Below are positions 615 to 63,462 of a stretch of DNA of 64,000 nucleotides, in pieces. The DNA is taken from NCBI GenBank assembly GCA_017432025.1, contig JAFRJX010000005.1:1-64000 (forward strand), read 5' to 3'. How positions within the stretch are numbered: position 1 is the first letter of the stretch; every line of letters begins with the position of its first letter. Source of the stretch: Candidatus Saccharimonadota bacterium (GTDB lineage: Bacteria; Patescibacteriota; Saccharimonadia; Saccharimonadales; Saccharimonadaceae). Position numbers and translations under genes: made by a program. Below the pieces are notes generated by a model, which saw nothing but the letters and a program-made list of their open reading frames with translations, did not search any database and was not told where the DNA came from.

Positions 615-1556
615 TTAGCGTTTGCGTGCCTTAATGCGAAGTCCGATATAGATAATCGCGGCGATAATCGCAAAGAGAATCGAGAAGAGCATCCAGATTG
701 GACACTTAATCACCATTTTCTTAACTTCGGTCTTGGTACCTTCAAATTCTACCGTATATACTACATTGTAAATACCAAATGACGGAGTATTTTTGAAAGC
801 CGTCTCGTAGTAAAGAGTACGATCTGGGAGAATCGTTTGTTCATCTGGCTTTTCCTCGTTCGTAAAGATTTCCTCGCTCGAGAATAGCGGGAAGACCTGG
901 AGCTTGTAAACTGCCTTGCCGTGCACGTTACCAGTGTTCTTTACCTTTGAAGAAGCGGTAAGATCACCTGAGAAGATAAAGCTTGGTACTGACACTTCGG
1001 TCACTTCACCCTTTTTCACGGTTTCGCCAGCGATTTCGGCGAAAATGGTGTGGGCAATCGCAATTTGCTCACGAATACCAGTACTACCTTCGCTCGTCTC
1101 ATCGGTATTATTAGATGAAACCGTAATAGCAGCGTACTGGCCACCAGCCGGTGCGTCCTCTGGAACATTAATGATAAACTCAATCTCGTTTGATTCGTTC
1201 GGGGCAATCCTTCCCTCGGTTGGGCTTACAATCGTCACCCACTTTGAAATCATCGTCCTGTCCGAATCTTCATCGAAGACTGCTGTATATTCTTCGTCAT
1301 CTTTCACATAGAAAGGCGATACAGTCACCAAATAAGAAAAATCATTCTCTGAAGATGCCGGGTTCGACACCGTAAAGGTACCGCGATACGAGTCGCCAGG
1401 GTTTAATACGATGTTTTGTTTCATCGGCGAAACGGAGAAGCCAATCTCGCCAGCCGCCTTTGCCACCCTGTCGCCTACCAACGCACACGCACCAGCAAAC
1501 ATCAAGACGAGTGCCGCTATTAGGACTTTCTTAAATTTAGTAAACTGTTTTTTCAT
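615..1556 (-). CDS. DUF916-like membrane-anchored surface protein
   Basis: 313 aa. The layout is a signal peptide (about residues 8-34, lysine-rich then hydrophobic), an extracellular beta-rich region, and a C-terminal membrane helix (about 283-305) followed by KARKR, so the bulk faces outward with the C-terminus inside. Residues 38-150 show the pattern of DUF916/WxL-interacting proteins: an initial FSVSP segment, NPGDSYRGTFTVSNP, and a late IAPNESNEIEF...VPEDAPAGGQYAAI stretch. A strong Shine-Dalgarno (AAGGAGG) lies 4 bases before the ATG. In Firmicutes, DUF916 proteins partner small WxL proteins in cell-wall operons. Here five small secreted proteins lie just upstream on the same strand, so a similar partnership is plausible. 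The family match was made by eye and could also be a generic COG1470-type adhesin. Confidence 0.65.
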   Translation of the reverse strand: MKKQFTKFKKVLIAALVLMFAGACALVGDRVAKAAGEIGFSVSPMKQNIVLNPGDSYRGTFTVSNPASSENDFSYLVTVSPFYVKDDEEYTAVFDEDSDRTMISKWVTIVSPTEGRIAPNESNEIEFIINVPEDAPAGGQYAAITVSSNNTDETSEGSTGIREQIAIAHTIFAEIAGETVKKGEVTEVSVPSFIFSGDLTASSKVKNTGNVHGKAVYKLQVFPLFSSEEIFTNEEKPDEQTILPDRTLYYETAFKNTPSFGIYNVVYTVEFEGTKTEVKKMVIKCPIWMLFSILFAIIAAIIYIGLRIKARKR

Positions 1557-1589: not shown

Positions 1590-2165
1590 TTAATCCTTAA
1601 CTTCGCAAGTAAATCCGGCATTGCGATAGGTCTGACGCACTTTATCAAGCGTAAAGTTGCCCTCCAAATCTTCTAATAGGAAATACTTCGCACCACTATC
1701 ACCAATCTGATCAGCGTAAGCTGTCATCGAAGTCGAAAGCAACATATTCTCTGTATCAGATACTAATTGTTTGTAAATTGCACCAAATGCATCCGGTTGA
1801 AGCCCAGACTTCGAGAAACTAATATTCATCGCCGCATGGTTATACGCTTCACTATGTACGATTTCTTCCTTCGAATTATAGTAAAGATCGTAGATGAACG
1901 AAATCACATGAAGTTTGTCATCGTTAAAAGTTGCCCGCATCGTCGTTTCCTTCTTTTTCGAGCCGTCCACGGTAAAGAATTTATACTCATAATCCTTCGA
2001 TGTACAGCTGAGTGACTTCGTCGTTTCCGGATCCGGGAAACCGCCACTCGTCGTCGTATTCCCCATCATCTTTAAAATACAAATTGTAACCACAATAGTG
2101 ACCACCAGCACAATTGCCACAATCGGCGCATACTTTTTCAGCTTATGGGTCTCTTTTATCTCCAT
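1590..2165 (-). CDS. Hypothetical membrane-anchored protein
   Basis: 191 aa. There is a short cytoplasmic N-terminus, one membrane helix (about residues 13-33), and an extracytoplasmic remainder of about 155 residues with two cysteines that could form a disulphide. I do not recognise the family. The promoter is an extended -10 (TGGTATAAT, 2190-2185) with a short leader carrying AAAGGAGG in front of the ATG. It is followed after 33 bases by the DUF916-like gene with no terminator between, so the two are probably co-transcribed. Its place between the secreted paralogue array and the DUF916-like protein suggests a surface-assembly role, by inference only. Confidence 0.7.
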   Translation of the reverse strand: MEIKETHKLKKYAPIVAIVLVVTIVVTICILKMMGNTTTSGGFPDPETTKSLSCTSKDYEYKFFTVDGSKKKETTMRATFNDDKLHVISFIYDLYYNSKEEIVHSEAYNHAAMNISFSKSGLQPDAFGAIYKQLVSDTENMLLSTSMTAYADQIGDSGAKYFLLEDLEGNFTLDKVRQTYRNAGFTCEVKD

Positions 2166-2258: not shown

Positions 2259-2789
2259 TTAAGCACCAGTCTTTTGGACGAGGGTGTAGGTAGCAGTACC
2301 AGTGTAGGTACCAGAAGCCTGATCATCGTGGGTGCTTACCGTGTAGTTAACGGTATAACTCGTACCACCGGCTGGGTCTTGCGTACCTTTCGTGCCAAGC
2401 TTGCCTTGGGTAGCAGCAATATTCGAACCAGAAACAGTAGCAGTCCAAGTACCAGAGCCAGCCGTTGGAGTAGTTGCAGAGTAGGCGATAGCAGTACCGT
2501 TACCAGCCGTGTGAGCAAGGCTCGTAAAGACAGCGTTAATATCGTAACCCAAACCATTGTTACAGGCAGACTTGAAGACACTTTCACCGAAGGCTGTATC
2601 AAGAGCACCAGCAGCCATCGACTTGGTGAATGAACCGCTGTTACCAGTATCGTGTTCAAAAGTACAAGATTCGTTCACAGTCACCGTAAGTGTATCAACC
2701 ACGGCAGCTGGGTTTGCTGCAAATACACCGACTACAGGCATAGCTGCAAGAACTAAAGATGCTGCACCAGCAACGATTGATTTTTTCAT
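2259..2789 (-). CDS. Secreted two-cysteine beta-sandwich-like protein, array member 1
   Basis: 176 aa. A signal peptide (about residues 1-24, cut after GVFA) is followed by a mature domain of about 150 residues. The features shared by the whole array are DTLTVTV, CTF near the N-terminus, a second cysteine in a CNxGxGY motif, ATTPTAGSGTWTA in the middle, and GTYTGTATYTL at the C-terminus. The two conserved cysteines probably form a disulphide. The pattern recalls spore-coat-U/pilin-type domains, and the C-terminal strand recalls WxL domains, but neither assignment is secure. There is no C-terminal anchor, so it is either released or held by partner proteins. It has its own promoter (2930-2903), a leader of about 110 bases and a Shine-Dalgarno (GGAAGGAG). 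Confidence 0.8.
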   Translation of the reverse strand: MKKSIVAGAASLVLAAMPVVGVFAANPAAVVDTLTVTVNESCTFEHDTGNSGSFTKSMAAGALDTAFGESVFKSACNNGLGYDINAVFTSLAHTAGNGTAIAYSATTPTAGSGTWTATVSGSNIAATQGKLGTKGTQDPAGGTSYTVNYTVSTHDDQASGTYTGTATYTLVQKTGA

Positions 2790-2902
2790 TTTTGTTTTCT
2801 CCTTCCATCAAAATGGAAATTATTTTTGTTGTTTATATTTATTGTTATTTTTATATTGTTTTGAATTTTTTGTATTGGTGTATGAAACCTTTTACAAATC
2901 TA

Positions 2903-2930
2903 ATTATACATGAGCTTTATGAAATGTCAA
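2903..2930 (-). promoter_or_regulatory. Promoter of array member 1
   Basis: TTGACA (2930-2925), a 16-base spacer, and TATAAT (2908-2903) preceded by TG. The transcript start region carries a TTTCATACACC motif that recurs in the leaders of array members 3 and 5. Confidence 0.8.
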
Positions 2931-2984
2931 TAACATTTTTTAATAATTTTTTAAGCTGACTTTTCCACAAGCCTAACAGATAAA

Positions 2985-3015
2985 AAAGGACCCCCTTAGA
3001 GCCAGGAGATCCTTT
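2985..3015 (-). terminator. Terminator after array member 2
   Basis: On the minus strand an 11-bp stem (AAAGGATCTCC with GGGGGTCCTTT, two G-U pairs) is followed by a T run. It closes the transcript of array members 3 and 2. Confidence 0.8.
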
Positions 3016-3038
3016 CAAAAAGTTTTATTGGGTGTGTA

Positions 3039-3569
3039 TTATTTTTGCGTCAAAGTGTACGTTGCAGTACCGGTATAAGTACCTTGTGCAATGTCATTTT
3101 GCGTCGATACTTTGTAGGTTACTTGCTGAGAAGTACCAGACGAAGTATCTGGGCCAGACTTATCGATTAACTTAGCGTTAGAAGCCGCAAGGTTTTGAGT
3201 TGAAGACGATCCACCCTTTGCTGCCGTCCAAGTACCGGAACCAGCCGTTGGAGTCGTTGCAGAATAGGTGATGCTTCCAGAAACGCTACCCGCGAGCGCC
3301 GTGAAGGCTGCTGCTACCGAATAACCACTACCGGCGTTACAAACCGCCTTAAAGGTATTCGTACCGAAGTTTGAGTTAAGCGCTCCAGCAGTCATAGAAT
3401 TGGAGATAGTTGCGCCACTACCGCCAGAATTACGCGTAAAGGTACAGATCTCATCAACCGTCACCGTAAGTGTATCTTGGACAGCAGATGGATTAGCAGC
3501 AAACACGCCAAATACTGGTGCAGCTGCGAATACGAGCGATGATGCTCCGATAATCAATGATTTTTTCAT
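3039..3569 (-). CDS. Secreted two-cysteine beta-sandwich-like protein, array member 2
   Basis: 176 aa. The same plan as its neighbours: signal peptide with GVFA cleavage region, CTF and CNAGSGY cysteine motifs, ATTPTAGSGTWTA, and a terminal GTYTGTATYTLTQK. It starts 24 bases after the stop of member 3 with its own Shine-Dalgarno (CGGAG) and no promoter between, so the two form one transcript. It is closest by eye to member 4 (4289-4819), with which it shares the DGPDTS-GT and AQGTYTG/SAGTYTG segments, so duplication order does not follow gene order. Confidence 0.8.
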   Translation of the reverse strand: MKKSLIIGASSLVFAAAPVFGVFAANPSAVQDTLTVTVDEICTFTRNSGGSGATISNSMTAGALNSNFGTNTFKAVCNAGSGYSVAAAFTALAGSVSGSITYSATTPTAGSGTWTAAKGGSSSTQNLAASNAKLIDKSGPDTSSGTSQQVTYKVSTQNDIAQGTYTGTATYTLTQK

Positions 3570-3593
3570 AATGTTTTTGTCTCCGTTTTTTTA

Positions 3594-4115
3594 TTAGCTA
3601 GCCATTGCAAGTTGATATGATGCAGTACCAGTGTAAGTACCCTTTGGTTGGTTATTTAATAGACCAACTTTGTAATTAATCGTATAGGTACGACCTGCTG
3701 AAGGGTCTTGGCTTGACTGAGTTGCAAGCGCTGTACCACTCGTAAGGTTCGACGTTGCAGTACCAAGCGTTGCCGTCCAAGTACCGGAACCGGCCGTTGG
3801 CGTAGTCGTACTATAGGTGATCGGGCTAGTAGCACCAGAGAACGTCAAGTTCGTAAAAGTTGGCGTAATGGTATAACCAGTACCATTGTTGCACTTCGAG
3901 GTGAACGTACTAGAACCAAACTCTGTATCAAGTTGGTTTGCCGTCATCGTCTTGCTATACGTACCTTCACCGGTAGTACGCGTAAAAGTACACGATACAG
4001 CGACGGTAACCGTCAAAGTATCGGTGAGCGCTGCCGGGTTGGTAGCGAACACGCCAAAAACTGGCGTGGCGGCGAATGCGAGTGATGCCGCACCTGCGAT
4101 TAGTGTTTTTTTCAT
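3594..4115 (-). CDS. Secreted two-cysteine beta-sandwich-like protein, array member 3
   Basis: 173 aa from the start at 4115, chosen because GGGAGGGAG sits just upstream and a signal peptide (MKKTLIAGAASL...) begins there. An in-frame ATG at 4148 would add 11 unlikely residues. Motifs as in the array: CTFTRT, CNNGTGY, TTTPTAGSGTWTA and GTYTGTASYQL, so the usual TYTL ending is changed in this copy. It is the first gene of a two-gene transcript with member 2, driven by the promoter at 4241-4213. Confidence 0.8.
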   Translation of the reverse strand: MKKTLIAGAASLAFAATPVFGVFATNPAALTDTLTVTVAVSCTFTRTTGEGTYSKTMTANQLDTEFGSSTFTSKCNNGTGYTITPTFTNLTFSGATSPITYSTTTPTAGSGTWTATLGTATSNLTSGTALATQSSQDPSAGRTYTINYKVGLLNNQPKGTYTGTASYQLAMAS

Positions 4116-4212
4116 AAAATTTTTGTCTCCCTCCCATTTCCTCAACAAGAAACGGAAAATTTTATTTTATTTTATTTTCGTTAATTGTGTATGAACCCTA
4201 TTAACACTTCTT

Positions 4213-4241
4213 ATTTTACATACGCGCAAATTCATTGTCAA
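4213..4241 (-). promoter_or_regulatory. Promoter of array members 3 and 2
   Basis: TTGACA (4241-4236), a 17-base spacer, and TAAAAT (4218-4213). The early leader contains AGGGTTCATACAC, the motif shared with members 1 and 5. Confidence 0.75.
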
Positions 4242-4288
4242 GCATAATTTTTATGTTTATTTTAAGCAAGTTTTCCACAGGTTCTAAT

Positions 4289-4819
4289 CTATTTCTGTGT
4301 CAAAGTATAAGTCGCAGTGCCAGTATAAGTACCGGCCGAAAGGCCATTCCCAGTTGAAACTTTGTAGCTCACTTCTTGCACAGTGCCCTCTGACGTATCC
4401 GGACCATCCGTATCCATCAATTTTGCACCGCTAGTTGCCATATAATCCGTACTGGAACTCGGACCAAGCACGGCCGTCCATCTCTTTGTGCTAGTCGTAG
4501 GTTTACCTTTGTAATAAGGAATGCTACCATTCACACTACCGGTGAGTGCCGTAAACGCTGCTACCACTTGATAGCCACTAGGTGAGTTACAAACCGCCGT
4601 AAATTCACTGGTGCCAAGCGTCATATTGGTCTTATTTGGTTGCATTGACGCCGTGTAAGTACCAGCACCAGCAGTACGCGTAAAAGTACAAACCTCGTCC
4701 ACAGTCACCGTGAGAGTATCTACCACCGCTGCTGGATCTGAAGCCGCAAAAGAACTGTTAGCCCAAAATAAACCGACTAACATTAAAACAGCAACAACTC
4801 CAAAAAACTTCGTTTTCAA
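4289..4819 (-). CDS. Secreted two-cysteine beta-sandwich-like protein, array member 4 (TTG start)
   Basis: 176 aa. The start is TTG, placed by AAGGAGG immediately upstream and by the signal peptide (MKTKFFGVVAVLML...SFAA) that begins there. The signal peptide differs from the near-identical ones of the other four members. The mature part keeps the CTF and CNSPSGY cysteine motifs and the GTYTGTATYTLTQK end, but the middle block is altered (KPTTSTKRWTA instead of TPTAGSGTWTA). An extended -10 promoter (TGCTATAAT) lies about 30 bases upstream, without the TTGACA box and leader motif of its neighbours, so regulation may differ. Confidence 0.75.
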   Translation of the reverse strand: MKTKFFGVVAVLMLVGLFWANSSFAASDPAAVVDTLTVTVDEVCTFTRTAGAGTYTASMQPNKTNMTLGTSEFTAVCNSPSGYQVVAAFTALTGSVNGSIPYYKGKPTTSTKRWTAVLGPSSSTDYMATSGAKLMDTDGPDTSEGTVQEVSYKVSTGNGLSAGTYTGTATYTLTQK

Positions 4820-4893
4820 AACACCTCCTTACGACACTTTCTAACTCTAATTATAGCAAACCATAAACAAAATACAAGCCCCCACAAAAAAAA

Positions 4894-4913
4894 GAACTCC
4901 CTATCGGGAGTTC
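4894..4913 (-). terminator. Terminator after array member 5
   Basis: A perfect 8-bp stem (GAACTCCC/GGGAGTTC) with a TATC loop and a run of T on the minus strand. It could work in both directions. Confidence 0.85.
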
Positions 4914-4931
4914 TCTTTTGCAGTATCTTGA

Positions 4932-5456
4932 TTAGCTCTTCTGGGTTAGAGTATAGGTAGCAGTACCACGGTATGTACCTTGAGCCTGATCGTCGTTCAA
5001 GCTAACCTTGTAGATAACGGTCACAGACGTACCTTCAGAAGGGTCTTGGGTTGACGTGTTGAGAAGGACACCGTTCGTTGCAGCGATGTTAGCGCCACCG
5101 TCGATTTGTGCAGTCCAAGTACCGGAACCGGCCGTTGGAGTTGTTGCAGAGTAGGTGATAGCATCGCCAGCATTATCGAGGTGCTCGAGGCTGGTGAACA
5201 CTGCGCTTACGGTGTAACCTAAACCGTTGTTACACATAGCTTTGAATGAGCTAGTTGCGAATGCCGTGTCAAGTGCACCTGGTTCCATCGCTTTGGTGTA
5301 AGCACCACCCGTGCCATCATGGTCGAACGTACAAGATTCGTTCACGGTGACAGTAAGTGTATCCACCACATCGGCTGGATCGGTTGCAAAAGCACCGACT
5401 ACTGGCATAGCAGCAAGAGCCAAAGATGCTGCGCCCGCAATTATTTGTTTTTTCAT
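4932..5456 (-). CDS. Secreted two-cysteine beta-sandwich-like protein, array member 5
   Basis: 174 aa. The signal peptide (MKKQIIAGAASLALAAMPVVGAFA) is nearly the same as in member 1, and the mature domains are also closest to each other (NESCTF, CNNGLGY, FTSLEH). It ends GTYRGTATYTLTQKS. It has its own TTGACA/TATAAT promoter (5559-5532), a leader of about 70 bases and a GGAAGGAG Shine-Dalgarno. Members 1 and 5 at the two ends of the array being most alike points to duplication with later rearrangement. Confidence 0.8.
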   Translation of the reverse strand: MKKQIIAGAASLALAAMPVVGAFATDPADVVDTLTVTVNESCTFDHDGTGGAYTKAMEPGALDTAFATSSFKAMCNNGLGYTVSAVFTSLEHLDNAGDAITYSATTPTAGSGTWTAQIDGGANIAATNGVLLNTSTQDPSEGTSVTVIYKVSLNDDQAQGTYRGTATYTLTQKS

Positions 5457-5531: not shown

Positions 5532-5559
5532 ATTATACATAAGCTTTAAAAAATGTCAA
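5532..5559 (-). promoter_or_regulatory. Promoter of array member 5
   Basis: TTGACA (5559-5554), a 16-base spacer, and TGTATAAT. The -35 box starts 7 bases after the stop codon of the upstream gene. The early leader has TTAAGGGTTATACACC, matching the leaders of members 1 and 3. Confidence 0.8.
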
Positions 5560-5566
5560 GACTTTT

Positions 5567-6073
5567 TTAAGACTTTTTTAAACTATTGAGAGAAATATGC
5601 TGATTTACCCAGTCAATGAAGCTACCATACTGGTTAAATGCGCCCGCATCTTCATCTGAATCAGCTCTAAGAAACGCTCTCACATTCCCTTTTCTAATCA
5701 CCACAATTGATGGATAATACTTTACTTTTTCATGTAATGTGGTTTCCTTTAGGTCTTCGAACATCATTCTATAGACCTTAACACCACTTTCCGGGAAATA
5801 ATCATTCGAAAACTTCCTTAGCCGATCCGCACCGTCGCAACCATTCTGATCCACAAAAATCACAAATGATTTCTTTTTCTTGATTAGGTCTTCGTATTCG
5901 TCTTTACCAAGCTCCGTAAAATCACCCTCGCAGGTGCCTTCGCAATAGTACTCGGCATCCAGCTCGGTTTCCGCTGGGTCGAACGCCCCACTAACTGCCA
6001 GCGCAAAGAGTATGCTACCAGTGACAATCATTAGTAGTCCAAGAATTAAATATAAAATACGTTTCTTCGGCAT
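5567..6073 (-). CDS. Membrane-anchored thioredoxin-fold-like protein
   Basis: 168 aa. One N-terminal membrane helix (about residues 6-30) and an extracytoplasmic domain. Residues 65-150 follow a thioredoxin-like pattern: a strand SFVIFVDQNGC in place of the redox loop, and KYYPSIVVIRKG with the usual cis-proline. The redox site has only one cysteine where CxxC is expected, so it may form mixed disulphides or act as a structural adaptor. Two further cysteines (YYCEGTCEG) lie just after the helix. Its ATG overlaps the stop of the rhodanese-like gene (TAATG), so translation is coupled and the two membrane-anchored proteins probably work together. Confidence 0.65.
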   Translation of the reverse strand: MPKKRILYLILGLLMIVTGSILFALAVSGAFDPAETELDAEYYCEGTCEGDFTELGKDEYEDLIKKKKSFVIFVDQNGCDGADRLRKFSNDYFPESGVKVYRMMFEDLKETTLHEKVKYYPSIVVIRKGNVRAFLRADSDEDAGAFNQYGSFIDWVNQHISLNSLKKS

Positions 6074-6756
6074 TATTTCTCCGTTAGTGAACTAAAATCA
6101 ATATTATGATAAGGAACCTTGTAAAAGTCGTAAACAGCTTTTCCTTCTGAATTTAATCTCTTTACTTCGATATTATTCTTGCCTTCGTAATACCAGTAAC
6201 CACCGACGTTGTAGATTCTGTCTTCGTCCCAACCGAGCGCCACAAGGAGTGCTTTCGTCATCCCCGCGTAGCCACCGCCACCGCACATCAGGAAGATAAT
6301 CTTATCTTTCGGGAAAAGTGCCTCGAGGATCTCCATTGATTCTTTATAATTCACTTTATACTCATTGGCTTTCATCGTAAAGAGAGTCTTACCAGTATAA
6401 GTTTCGCCGACTTCTTCCGGAAGGCCACTCACGTTTACAATATATGGTAGTGGCACCACTTCAAAGCCTTTTACAAAACCAGATAGATTTGAATCACCGC
6501 CAATCGCCTCATAATTTCCAGGATCCTTCAACATGCGCATATCACGGTAAACCGCATCCGGTCGGTTCAAATAATCATCGATGTTCTCTTCGTTGATGTT
6601 CTTATCAATGCCAAGTTCACCTCTTTGGCCTTCCGACTTCTCTGGCTTCGGCAAAGGTGCTAGGCCCGTATTTGGAAAAGCAAATCTTCCTAATAAAAAT
6701 GCGCCCATCACTAAAAGCGCCACCCCGGTCACAATTCCCCAGATAAATCTTTTCAT
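6073..6756 (-). CDS. Membrane-anchored rhodanese-domain protein
   Basis: 227 aa. One N-terminal membrane helix (about residues 5-26), then a rhodanese-type domain outside the membrane. YRDMRMLKDPGNYEAIGG and GFVKGFEVVPLPYI match the first half, and IIFLMCGGGGYAGMTKALLVALGW carries the active-site cysteine of the second half, followed by YNVGGYWYYEG. The domain could transfer sulphur or sense oxidation at the cell surface; the substrate is unknown. It starts with GGAGG before the ATG. Its probable -10 box (6787-6782) contains the stop codon of the upstream HNH gene. The downstream thioredoxin-like gene overlaps by one base. Confidence 0.8.
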   Translation of the reverse strand: MKRFIWGIVTGVALLVMGAFLLGRFAFPNTGLAPLPKPEKSEGQRGELGIDKNINEENIDDYLNRPDAVYRDMRMLKDPGNYEAIGGDSNLSGFVKGFEVVPLPYIVNVSGLPEEVGETYTGKTLFTMKANEYKVNYKESMEILEALFPKDKIIFLMCGGGGYAGMTKALLVALGWDEDRIYNVGGYWYYEGKNNIEVKRLNSEGKAVYDFYKVPYHNIDFSSLTEK

Positions 6757-6781
6757 ATTACCTCCACTATATATTATTTAT

Positions 6782-6787
6782 ATTATA
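6782..6787 (-). promoter_or_regulatory. -10 box of the rhodanese gene, containing the HNH stop codon
   Basis: TGTATAAT on the minus strand; bases 6785-6783 (TAA) are also the stop codon of the HNH gene. Confidence 0.55.
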
Positions 6788-7496
6788 CACCAATTGCCGG
6801 CTCACTCGGGCAGTTTTTTAAAACTCCCTTGATGGCGTTTTTCTCCGCCTCCGTCACCCAGAGGCTGTATTTGTATTTCACCGACACCTGTCTCGCCACG
6901 TATTCACAGCGGAACTTCTTGTTTGGTGGGAGCCACGTCGCCGCATCACCATCCGATTTATTTTCATTCGCCGGACCGTCCACCGCTAAAAGATTGAGCG
7001 GATCCGTCGCAATCTTGTATCGTGTTTCGTAAGATAAGTACTGTGCGCCCTTTTGCCACGCATCTGAGAGCGCCACCACGTGGTCAATCTGAATCGCATT
7101 CGAAATCTGCGACTTATCTGTAAACACCATGTGCTTACCGGCATACGGCTCGTCAAATTCACCTGCGATTACATTGCAGCCCTTTAGTTTTGCCGTATCA
7201 CCGAGCTCACGCTTAATAATCCTTTGCCTTAGCGAGCATCCGTCCACCAGTGGCCAGCCATCATAGAATTGCTCTCTAGCGTAGCCGGTCTTTGGCGCCC
7301 GACCTTTTACTTCTAATTTTTCCAGAATTTCACTCGCCAGTGGCGCCCCGTCACTTCTTGGCACCGCCACCACATCATTATTGTCTTCGACCTTGGTAAA
7401 GAATTGTTCATAACTTTCCGGATTCAAAATCAGCCACGCCCCCACTCCTATAAACGCTAGAACCGTCAGTAGAATTCTCCGGTGTTTTATCTTCAT
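6783..7496 (-). CDS. Membrane-anchored or secreted HNH nuclease (GmrSD-C/DUF1524-like)
   Basis: 237 aa. One N-terminal hydrophobic segment (about residues 6-24) directs the rest outside. The C-terminal half has the HNH nuclease signature of the GmrSD C-terminal/DUF1524 group: IDHVVALSDAWQKGA (about residue 135), then ATDPLNLLAVDGPANENKSDGDAATWLP with the conserved N...K..D..A and P residues, and an aromatic Y..R...VK.KY tail. Such secreted nucleases degrade external DNA, useful for an epibiont that must import nucleotides. The substrate claim is inference. It is leaderless: TGATATGAT lies 6 bases before the ATG. It is divergent from the 641-aa gene. Confidence 0.85.
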   Translation of the reverse strand: MKIKHRRILLTVLAFIGVGAWLILNPESYEQFFTKVEDNNDVVAVPRSDGAPLASEILEKLEVKGRAPKTGYAREQFYDGWPLVDGCSLRQRIIKRELGDTAKLKGCNVIAGEFDEPYAGKHMVFTDKSQISNAIQIDHVVALSDAWQKGAQYLSYETRYKIATDPLNLLAVDGPANENKSDGDAATWLPPNKKFRCEYVARQVSVKYKYSLWVTEAEKNAIKGVLKNCPSEPAIGV

Positions 7497-60615: not shown

Positions 60616-63462
60616 TTAGAAGCCAGTTCTATCGATTTCCCACTGCGGTCTCGCGAGACACCGAACCGACATGCCCGTACCACGTCCGTAACTAAACTCC
60701 GGGCCACCCTGTGCATAGTTACCCCACCAATACCAGTCGTACACAGCCGTATCCATATAACCAGAAATAATATAAGAAGTCGCGCTCCAGTAGCCTGAAC
60801 CCAACGTACCAGCGGATTCTAGCACTCCATAATCATAGGTCGTATAAGTGTTCGGATCCGTGTACTTGCCAATCTGACCTGCTCTTGGGAAGTAAAACGG
60901 TGCACCCGTAAGATACATATCTACATCACTATTAGTTCCGTCTGGTTGGTTGCCGTGTCCATAGTATTCGTCCCAAATTGACTGTACAGCCTGATCAAGC
61001 TCCGTGTAATCCGATGAGCCACTCGGACTTAGAGATGCATTATATTTCGGAAGTCGCCATCCGGCCGGACAAATCGAATTCGGTGCATTCTGAAGATGAC
61101 TATACTGAGACGCATTGTTTGTTGCAACTGCCGCCGCCCAGCTATAATAATTACCAACATGTCCATGCGTTCCATTCGAAGCATAAGGCGACATATTAAA
61201 CATACCACCAGTCTGCCCCTTCAAATAGTTATAGCCATCGTAATTCCCCGAGCTCCACTGCCCAGAATCCCAATACCAGTTCGTCGATGCCGAAGTCCCT
61301 GGGTTTAGCGATATCGGATAATTACTATTATTAAAATTCCATGCCGTAATATAATTACCAGAATAATTGTAAACATTCGAGGTCGCATATTGTGGATACC
61401 ATGATGTACTCGAATCTTCATAACCGATATCCGTATCAGCGTGATAATAATACTTTCTAGCAATATCAAGATCGAGATTTTGACTCATCCAAATGTTGCC
61501 ATCACCAAGCTTCGTCACCCAATATGTCTTATTATCACGGGAGTCTTTGAGCTGGAATTGTGCCCATTCTCTCATCGAGTTCCAAACCCCAGCATAATCT
61601 ACATCATTTAGCGTCGCAAAATCTTGCATATAAGTTAAGTCAGTAATCTGTTTAGCTGCAGGGCGTAAACATCTAATCGTGTAACCGCCCTGAGAAGTCA
61701 TCGTCGTACCAGTCGTAATGGTACGATCATTTATATTGCCATTATACATGAGAAATTCATATGCCCACATACCGCCACTTCCAGTACTATTTGCTGTGTT
61801 AGATGAATACATACCGGTATTACCCCGACCAATATAGGCACCATAAATGTACCCACCATAAACGAAGTTATTCGGGAAGCTCATTAATCGATTCACTACT
61901 GCTACATTATCAATGTAACCATAACCGCCACCGTATTGTTTCGAAAGGTAACCAATCGTATCAAATTCATCACCCGTATCATAAGGAAGATCCCAACCTT
62001 TTGGACAAATCGAACCATCCGCCACTGCATTATTGGTGTAATAATGCGATATTCTACCCGCCGTCGCACCATACCAGTTGTAATAATTACCATACGCAAT
62101 CACATTCCCAGATGTACTATATGTCGACGCAGTTTTACCCATCACCGTGTTGTCCGTATTGAATAACAAACGTTCCGTACAAGATTGTGTACCATCAGTA
62201 CACCACTGAGCCGGTGTCGTCGAAGTTGAATACGAAGAAGTCGTCATTTGTATACTCGTACCAGGGTAATAATACGTCATTGGCACAGCCGGATTATTAG
62301 TGTAATTTTCATCAAGTGTCACATTATTGCCACCAAAACGGAAGTTCTCAATAATCCAACAATTATCATCCGCTAATCTCGCCACCGCATAAGTTTGGTT
62401 GTCACGGATATCCGTGAGCGCCGTCACACTAGCAAGTGTAGCGACAATTGCACCAGTTCCAGAATTATAGGAAACCGGCGTCAAGTTACCACAACCTTGC
62501 CAGTTATGGAAATACCCAGCCGAGGCCACCCAAGTCGCATAAAGCGTCAAACCCTCAGACGAATTTGTTGGTACCGTAATTGCCTGGTTCGGCCCGTAAA
62601 GCGTACCCGTGCCATCGGCTGCCGTATTCCAGCCAGCAAAACCATAACCTTGCAAATAGTAGTTTGGTGCCTGAAGCACCACCGTGCTACCACCCGTTGC
62701 CACCTGATACCCCTTATTGCTGCTCGTATCATTTGTATAAGTTCCTGGATTCATCGTCCCGACCACATTGGCATTCACTGGATCATAGCAAATGTACCCC
62801 GGTAAACAATCTGGGAGCGGTTCCGCCGCCACAATTGAATACTTCACCTTACCAATGTAAGAATCCGGTAATTGTGAGCTCGAAATCCTAGCTGCGTAAG
62901 TCGTAAAAATTGAAGCACCAACCGTCGTGTCGGTGTTTGTACCATAAGTTGCAATGAGAGTCGTCGAGCCTGGTACTACATGGTAGCTGCCAAAGCTGTT
63001 CTCAATCGTCATTTGGGCAGGAAGATACGAAGACGTATCCTTCGAAATCTGCATCGACCAGTTCGAAACGTCACCCGTCCCGGTACCGGTGTTAATGTTC
63101 CCACCACCATTCTGCCCAATCAGTCTCGTATTGCCGGTCGAATTATTCGAATAACCAACTGCATAAATCTCAAAACTCGGCGCATCGGCACACTTGGTTG
63201 TTAGTCTCGTCTGACCAATACCGGTGCTGTAAGAGCTATTCGTCACTGTCTTCGAGTGGGTTTGTGTCACTGTCGAAGTAAATGTACAAGCATTATCTCC
63301 ATAAATATCTAAAGAATCGTCGTGAATTGCTTTTACTGCTCTGTATTCATAAGAACCGAGTGCAACAAATGCCACCGCTGTTAAAGCAACCAAAAACATT
63401 GCAACATGTGCACAAATGTACCTAGCAATTTTCATTACTTTTTTATCGCTTTGTTTTAACAC
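60616..63462 (-). CDS. Large surface protein with two FISUMP domains (GTG start)
   Basis: 948 aa. Start GTG with AAAGGT before it. An N-terminal membrane anchor or signal (about 15-38). A two-cysteine domain (about 50-215, ACTFTSTV, TKCADAPSFEIYAVGY, and GKVKYSIV at its end) follows the same plan as the small secreted paralogues at 2259-5456. An InlB-type repeat (GYGFAGWNTAADGTGTLYGPNQAI) is nearly the same as one in the 1,333-aa protein. Two FISUMP domains are marked by DIRDNQTYAVARLADDNCWIIENF and DSRDNKTYWVTKLGDGNIWMSQNLD with CPKGWDLP and CPAGWRLP. It is a paralogue of the 41961-45962 protein, rich in Tyr, Asn, Gly and Ser. Confidence 0.85.
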   Translation of the reverse strand: MLKQSDKKVMKIARYICAHVAMFLVALTAVAFVALGSYEYRAVKAIHDDSLDIYGDNACTFTSTVTQTHSKTVTNSSYSTGIGQTRLTTKCADAPSFEIYAVGYSNNSTGNTRLIGQNGGGNINTGTGTGDVSNWSMQISKDTSSYLPAQMTIENSFGSYHVVPGSTTLIATYGTNTDTTVGASIFTTYAARISSSQLPDSYIGKVKYSIVAAEPLPDCLPGYICYDPVNANVVGTMNPGTYTNDTSSNKGYQVATGGSTVVLQAPNYYLQGYGFAGWNTAADGTGTLYGPNQAITVPTNSSEGLTLYATWVASAGYFHNWQGCGNLTPVSYNSGTGAIVATLASVTALTDIRDNQTYAVARLADDNCWIIENFRFGGNNVTLDENYTNNPAVPMTYYYPGTSIQMTTSSYSTSTTPAQWCTDGTQSCTERLLFNTDNTVMGKTASTYSTSGNVIAYGNYYNWYGATAGRISHYYTNNAVADGSICPKGWDLPYDTGDEFDTIGYLSKQYGGGYGYIDNVAVVNRLMSFPNNFVYGGYIYGAYIGRGNTGMYSSNTANSTGSGGMWAYEFLMYNGNINDRTITTGTTMTSQGGYTIRCLRPAAKQITDLTYMQDFATLNDVDYAGVWNSMREWAQFQLKDSRDNKTYWVTKLGDGNIWMSQNLDLDIARKYYYHADTDIGYEDSSTSWYPQYATSNVYNYSGNYITAWNFNNSNYPISLNPGTSASTNWYWDSGQWSSGNYDGYNYLKGQTGGMFNMSPYASNGTHGHVGNYYSWAAAVATNNASQYSHLQNAPNSICPAGWRLPKYNASLSPSGSSDYTELDQAVQSIWDEYYGHGNQPDGTNSDVDMYLTGAPFYFPRAGQIGKYTDPNTYTTYDYGVLESAGTLGSGYWSATSYIISGYMDTAVYDWYWWGNYAQGGPEFSYGRGTGMSVRCLARPQWEIDRTGF

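Follow-up and report, generated by a model that had tools for sequence, protein, structure and literature searches.

Chaperone-usher pili, among them the archaic Csu, type 1 Fim and Caf1 systems, are built from pilins in which a disulfide sits between the first two strands, and fimbria-type systems of this kind normally need an outer-membrane usher. In the WxL clusters of Firmicutes the partner protein WxLIP has the organization DUF916-DUF3324-transmembrane segment, and a strand of its hairpin has been predicted to complete the WxL sandwich (PMC10599100); by analogy, this would follow the same principle as the complementation of pilins by their chaperones. Usher-free donor-strand filaments have been described in a monoderm, Gram-positive bacterium, namely TasA/TapA of Bacillus subtilis (PMC10151520, PMC9674648). 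Within the Saccharibacteria, NCBIfam names a "Pam pilus" (NF058578, NF058579 and NF058581); no paper using this term, and none that brings together Saccharibacteria, surface protein and WxL, was found in the literature searched. Here we describe a locus of a Candidatus Saccharimonadota bacterium of the same order, contained in a stretch of 64,000 nucleotides (assembly GCA_017432025.1, contig JAFRJX010000005.1, positions 1 to 64,000; hereafter the window). It comprises five tandem genes for secreted two-cysteine proteins (2259-5456) and a gene for a membrane-anchored DUF916-like protein (615-1556). We consider it fairly probable that the array encodes the subunits of a surface fibre or of a system for adhesin display, a divergent and usher-free kin of Pam that works by strand complementation.

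An earlier note on this DNA had described five secreted two-cysteine paralogues in tandem, and the corresponding open reading frames were found. All lie on the minus strand: copy A (4932-5456, 174 aa), copy B (4289-4819, 176 aa), copy C (3594-4115, 173 aa), copy D (3039-3569, 176 aa, directly behind C) and copy E (2259-2789, 176 aa). The mechanical open reading frame of copy C reaches 4148, and from the sequence the ATG at 4115 is the more likely start. Copy B, the most divergent, accounts for the single TTG start that had been noticed, and this codon follows an AGGAGG. A search of the genome with copy D matched all five copies (E 1e-43 to 1e-51) and the array copies are 44-71% identical to copy E, so the paralogy is real rather than due to chance. 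The same search added two small copies (contigs C4 and C1) and one longer fused copy. Blocks common to copies A-E are a signal peptide ending A-x-A, DTLTVTV..xCTF, CNxGxGY, WTA and GTYTGTATYTL. Of the blocks quoted earlier for all five, copy B carries CNSPSGY and KPTTSTKRWTA in their place. The copies end right after the last strand, with no LPXTG motif, hydrophobic tail or positive tail, and no Pfam family was found for the pilin-like proteins.

Structure prediction of one member, a check that had been proposed with the earlier observation, was run with AlphaFold2 on copy A together with 51 relatives. The model is an all-beta domain (predicted local distance difference test score, pLDDT, 87) whose closest fold is that of chaperone-usher pilins. 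The first 15 Foldseek matches are all such pilins (Csu, FimF, FimA, FimG, FimI; prob 0.94-1.00), the archaic Csu pilus ranking first with E 1.2e-3 and prob 1.00, and VIA gave Z 8.0-8.8 for CfaE, FimG and CsuA/B. One family member also matches the fimbrial protein YehD (E 1.2e-6). TasA and WxL entries were not among the matches listed for this model, which does not by itself exclude a relation. Residues 25-41, which include the DTLTVTV extension of copy A, form no strand in the model. Among the 52 members a large hydrophobic residue occupies position 34 in 100%, position 36 in 98% and position 38 in 100%, with polar residues between them. D32, C42 and C75 are invariant; in the copy A model the first strand starts with C42 and the second ends with C75, which is where chaperone-usher pilins have their disulfide. 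Both the fold match and the pattern of the extension fit the N-terminal donor strand and incomplete Ig fold of a pilin, as predicted features.

The protein encoded at 615-1556 (minus strand, 313 aa), downstream of the array, had been called DUF916-like, and this description is borne out. A Pfam search with the sequence alone gives a weak DUF916 match (PF06030, E 0.089, below cut-off); by profile and by fold the similarity is clear. Among 50 DUF916-like members the best PF06030 match reaches E 3.1e-5, and a profile of 50 relatives found EfmWxLIP1 as its top solved structure (E 0.009). The predicted model (pLDDT 88.6) consists of a signal helix, two beta domains and a C-terminal transmembrane helix. 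Its best Foldseek match is WxLIP (E 4e-12), followed by pilus chaperones (7e-10 to 1e-6 where listed), namely CfaA, CsuC, DraB, PapD and FimC at 7e-10 to 2e-7, besides EcpB and Caf1M. VIA likewise placed WxLIP first (Z 13.7), then CsuC (Z 12.1), with pilus chaperones overall at Z 10-12. In its predicted fold the protein resembles the two-domain PapD-like chaperones CsuC, FimC and CfaA, but WxLIP fits better and the protein is membrane-anchored. DUF916-like genes are present in 58/60 genomes of the genus, usually two to six per genome. In this genome and in G050, a second DUF916-like paralogue (L054:1094-1954; L057:666-1526) adjoins anaerobic ribonucleotide reductase-like and activase-like genes and has a small pilin-like gene a few kb away.

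A further gene, which the earlier note had overlooked, separates copy E from the DUF916-like gene (1590-2165, minus strand). It encodes a 191-aa membrane-anchored protein with a hydrophobic N-terminal segment, and C54 and C187 are invariant in 34 members; no Pfam family and no solved structure was matched by its sequence. Across 60 sampled genomes of the genus, a DUF916-like gene was found less than 3 kb away from 32 of the 38 pilin-like genes that had been taken from the search list. In nearly all of these 32 pairs the two genes share a strand and the DUF916-like gene is the downstream one; the gap, usually ~690-780 bp, contains a homologue of the 191-aa protein. In a second collection of 53 Saccharibacteria loci, fetched with the DUF916-like alignment as query, 65 of the 78 DUF916-like genes are directly preceded by a pilin-like gene on the same strand, and 48 of these also have the middle gene. 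The two collections share genomes, so their counts are not independent. The order pilin-like, ~190-aa anchored and DUF916-like is conserved, and 1590-2165 belongs to one module with the array and the DUF916-like gene. Some loci depart from this arrangement: L121, L123, L126, L134 and L138 have two tandem DUF916-like genes and no middle gene, most of them with a weakly similar pilin-like gene upstream of the pair. Head-to-head pairs of pilin-like genes were seen in 11 relatives (L088, L090, L093, L095, L096, L098, L112, L113, L115, L119 and L136), where they are mostly parts of two divergent modules 0.1-2.7 kb apart.

The Pam pilus occurs in the same order of Saccharibacteria and combines a homologous pilin domain with a homologous DUF916-like transmembrane protein beside it. 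All three Pam loci that were examined contain pilins and a DUF916-like transmembrane protein, flanked in two of them by F-type ATPase genes and an mnmA-like gene; in L050, PamT and PamR were confirmed by hidden Markov models. Profile-profile comparison (hhalign) aligned the Pam pilins with the two-cysteine proteins (prob 94.8, E 5e-8); it also aligned the DUF916-like proteins of the module with those of the Pam loci over their length (E 2e-29). Matches to the curated pilin family itself are weaker. Copy A scores 14.8 bits against NF058581 ("Pam pilus system pilin subunit"; E 0.023), and no copy in the window reaches its 55-bit cut-off. Ten of the 52 pilin-like members match at E <= 0.01 (best 4.8e-8), and scores above cut-off occur in 15 of 60 sampled relatives, all from other families of the order. 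PamR (NF058578) was found in 0/60 genomes of the genus and PamT (NF058579) in none of 40 over cut-off; neither was found in the genome carrying the array. Pam pilins are, moreover, mostly two-domain proteins of 350-400 aa, whereas the array pilins are single-domain, two-cysteine proteins of ~175 aa, and the array module adds the 190-aa anchored gene and the tandem expansion. Because PamR and PamT are absent, the NF058581 match is weak and the homology appears at profile level, the array system is, as judged from these sequence comparisons, a divergent relative of Pam and not a member by the curated definitions. The suggestion that such a system had not been described in this lineage must be narrowed: NCBIfam already names a related one in the same order.

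The locus shares with WxL clusters a WxLIP-like protein of two beta domains with a C-terminal transmembrane segment, for which EfmWxLIP1 is the best solved structure, and the use of one domain in both small and large proteins. It differs in that the partner domain is two-cysteine and pilin-like, and stands at the N-terminus rather than the C-terminus of the large proteins. No WxL domain (PF13731) was found in 40 genomes of the genus or in the array's own genome, so the array is not a WxL system. The original description as WxL-type or pilin-type nevertheless has good grounds: the predicted WxLIP fold of 615-1556, the predicted pilin-like fold of the copies and the linkage of these genes in dozens of genomes. 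Similarity to chaperone-usher pili extends to the predicted pilin-like fold, the cysteine pair between the first two strands, the alternating-hydrophobic N-terminal extension and the predicted two-domain PapD-like fold of the partner. Unlike those pili, however, the locus comes with no outer-membrane usher (PF00577 in 0/20 genomes, E. coli control positive), with probably no outer membrane, with a chaperone-like protein that is membrane-anchored, and with low sequence similarity. TasA/TapA filaments offer a precedent for the mechanism. Type IV pili were ruled out, given the Sec-type signal peptide ending A-x-A, the all-beta model and the lack of a retained N-terminal hydrophobic helix.

The pilin-like domain also heads much larger proteins. 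A secreted protein of 948 aa encoded at 60616-63462 (minus strand) carries it at residues ~20-214, followed by InlB-type/FISUMP repeats (FISUMP match E 9.8e-18), and is likely an adhesin client of the array system. Counting this one, the genome has several such proteins, with open frames of ~500 to 3,700 aa and the domain near the N-terminus; one of them, of 2465 aa, also has six FISUMP stretches. Some relatives in the genus contain as many as 29 occurrences of the domain, for the most part in proteins 450-1,100 aa long. Weaker matches, one or two per genome, are seen outside the genus. The N-terminal donor pattern recurs in most of the large FISUMP proteins, with a Gly-containing variant in the giant ones of this genome. 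As a sign that the giant proteins lack the pattern, as tip adhesins would, this is ambiguous.

To compare copy number among strains had also been proposed, and two other species (L087 and L106) proved to have five copies in the same order as in the window. A tree places the copies of B and of C in starred groups of orthologues, and copy A joins its orthologues together with a fourth relative. Copies D and E stand beside their namesakes at unresolved forks, the L106 copy D being on a long branch and of unsure placement. The ratio of nonsynonymous to synonymous substitution rates (dN/dS) is 0.12-0.27 for the pilin-like genes versus 0.04-0.09 for their neighbours. Judged by this order, grouping and rate, the copies are long-standing, have been maintained separately and evolve faster than the neighbouring genes, with no sign of switching. 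The idea that variation between tandem copies might allow switching or recombination thus finds no support, the copies grouping largely one by one across species, and a search of the array for inverted repeats found none; switching and phase variation were rejected for want of evidence. Positive selection was likewise not accepted: dN/dS is <0.3 everywhere and only ~2-4x that of the neighbours, therefore indicating relaxed or variable constraint rather than proven diversification.

Taken together, these results are consistent with a model in which the two-cysteine proteins would be secreted by the Sec route and each would adopt an incomplete pilin fold of the Ig-like kind, bearing a Cys42-Cys75 disulfide. 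The N-terminal extension (of the Leu34-Val36-Val38 type) would be given as a donor strand to the neighbouring subunit. The DUF916-like protein, with its two PapD/WxLIP-like beta domains and transmembrane helix, is proposed as an anchored chaperone or anchor that would cap or hold subunits at the cell surface, in parallel to pilus chaperones with pilins and to the supposed role of WxLIP with WxL. The 191-aa anchored protein may be a regular accessory, perhaps the base, and the large FISUMP proteins with the same domain may be built into the system or shown by it as adhesins. Paralogy, gene linkage, predicted folds, the extension pattern, the cysteine pair, the profile homology to Pam and the absence of ushers and WxL domains from the genomes searched were observed; polymerisation, chaperone action, disulfide formation and the adhesive role we infer from them. 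That strand complementation is at work is likely, and we lean towards its product being a pilus-like fibre. A more far-reaching proposal, an usher-free chaperone-pilin system in a single-membrane, presumably epibiotic bacterium, in which pilins would polymerise from an anchored PapD/WxLIP-type chaperone at the outer side of the membrane, is tentative, and we find it rather more doubtful than probable.

If that proposal is correct, WxL clusters, Pam pili and chaperone-usher pili would form one superfamily of strand-complementing surface systems, serving here to display a large adhesin repertoire on Saccharibacteria. A fibre or adhesin-display system as modelled above would tie the WxL system of Gram-positives, the Pam pilus of the candidate phyla radiation (CPR) and chaperone-usher pili to a shared mechanism. 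Usher-free assembly could be tested directly with the small soluble proteins. Saccharibacteria are very small and are known for living on other bacteria, and the system may help them to attach to surfaces or hosts. Where their biology is known, they need to attach to a host bacterium, and type IV pili are the attachment filaments that have been described to date (PMC12206443). New candidates for host recognition would come from a second, abundant system that forms fibres or displays adhesins.

Several observations weigh against a fibre. The best VIA match of the copy A model is the Ig-like domain of a glycosidase (Z 10.4), so a beta sandwich alone is not diagnostic, and the Foldseek E-values of the model are modest. 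The lack of PamR and PamT described above points the same way, as does a negative search for VKOR as the route of disulfide oxidation. No filament has been seen. Sortases, found in 20/20 genomes with five in this one, could attach surface proteins instead. If these enzymes simply tethered the copies to the wall as common secreted proteins, the C-terminal hydrophobic anchor of some pilin-like relatives (L022) would fit; yet the five copies have none of the corresponding C-terminal features, and the conserved module contains the DUF916-like partner and no sortase gene, which leaves sortase assembly or anchoring very improbable. Scarcely less remote is the idea that the copies are secreted proteins with an Ig-like fold but no such relationship, such as matrix or lectin-like ones, which multiplied to provide antigenic variety and are linked to the DUF916-like gene by chance. 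Ig-like folds are common and the raised dN/dS would suit this explanation, but the gene order is kept in dozens of genomes, and the relatives of the two proteins stand next to each other in Pam pilus loci.

More weight must be given to a WxL-like display, in which the two-cysteine domains, alone or heading the large FISUMP adhesins, would be held as surface monomers by a strand-completing DUF916-like protein. Small copies would then be platform proteins and large ones binding proteins, as with small WxL, large WxL and WxLIP. This three-part architecture (small domain-only, large domain-plus-adhesin, WxLIP-like) is present, WxLIP is the best fold match of the DUF916-like model, and its hairpin is the strand predicted to complete the WxL sandwich. 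Against it, the conserved alternating extension would serve no evident purpose if the proteins did not polymerise, pilin is the name given to the homologues in Pam loci, and the WxL domain itself is missing from the genus genomes searched. We regard such display as unlikely, though a serious competitor, and favour subunits that complement one another.

The array is divided by several promoter- and terminator-like sites into units, and a single operon was therefore rejected. Promoter-like sites, all on the minus strand, lie upstream of copy A (5532-5559, 12/12 consensus), of copies C and D (4213-4241, 11/12) and of copy E (2903-2930, 12/12); copy D has none of its own. Those of A and E are perfect TTGACA-16-TATAAT, equal in quality to the site of the 23S rRNA gene, and over 54 nt the region upstream of copy E (2886-2939) shares 81% identity with its counterpart at copy A. 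This arrangement suggests that the copies may be expressed strongly and separately, as for structural subunits.

The genome is small (0.86 Mb, 97% complete), and the named records with relatives belong to Candidatus Saccharibacteria, many of ruminant-gut origin; in L106, from roe deer omasum, the DUF916-like protein is 96% identical to that of 615-1556. The 23S rRNA gene, on the minus strand with its 5' end at 263, follows closely downstream of the module, and no 16S gene lies between it and the DUF916-like gene. A perfect sigma-70-type promoter-like site (482-454) precedes the 23S gene directly behind the DUF916-like gene. Upstream of the array, the genes at 5567-7496 encode a thioredoxin-like protein (5567-6073, weak match), an unassigned secreted 227-aa protein and a GmrSD_C/HNH-like secreted protein (6783-7496), and they are kept beside the array in L087 and L106.

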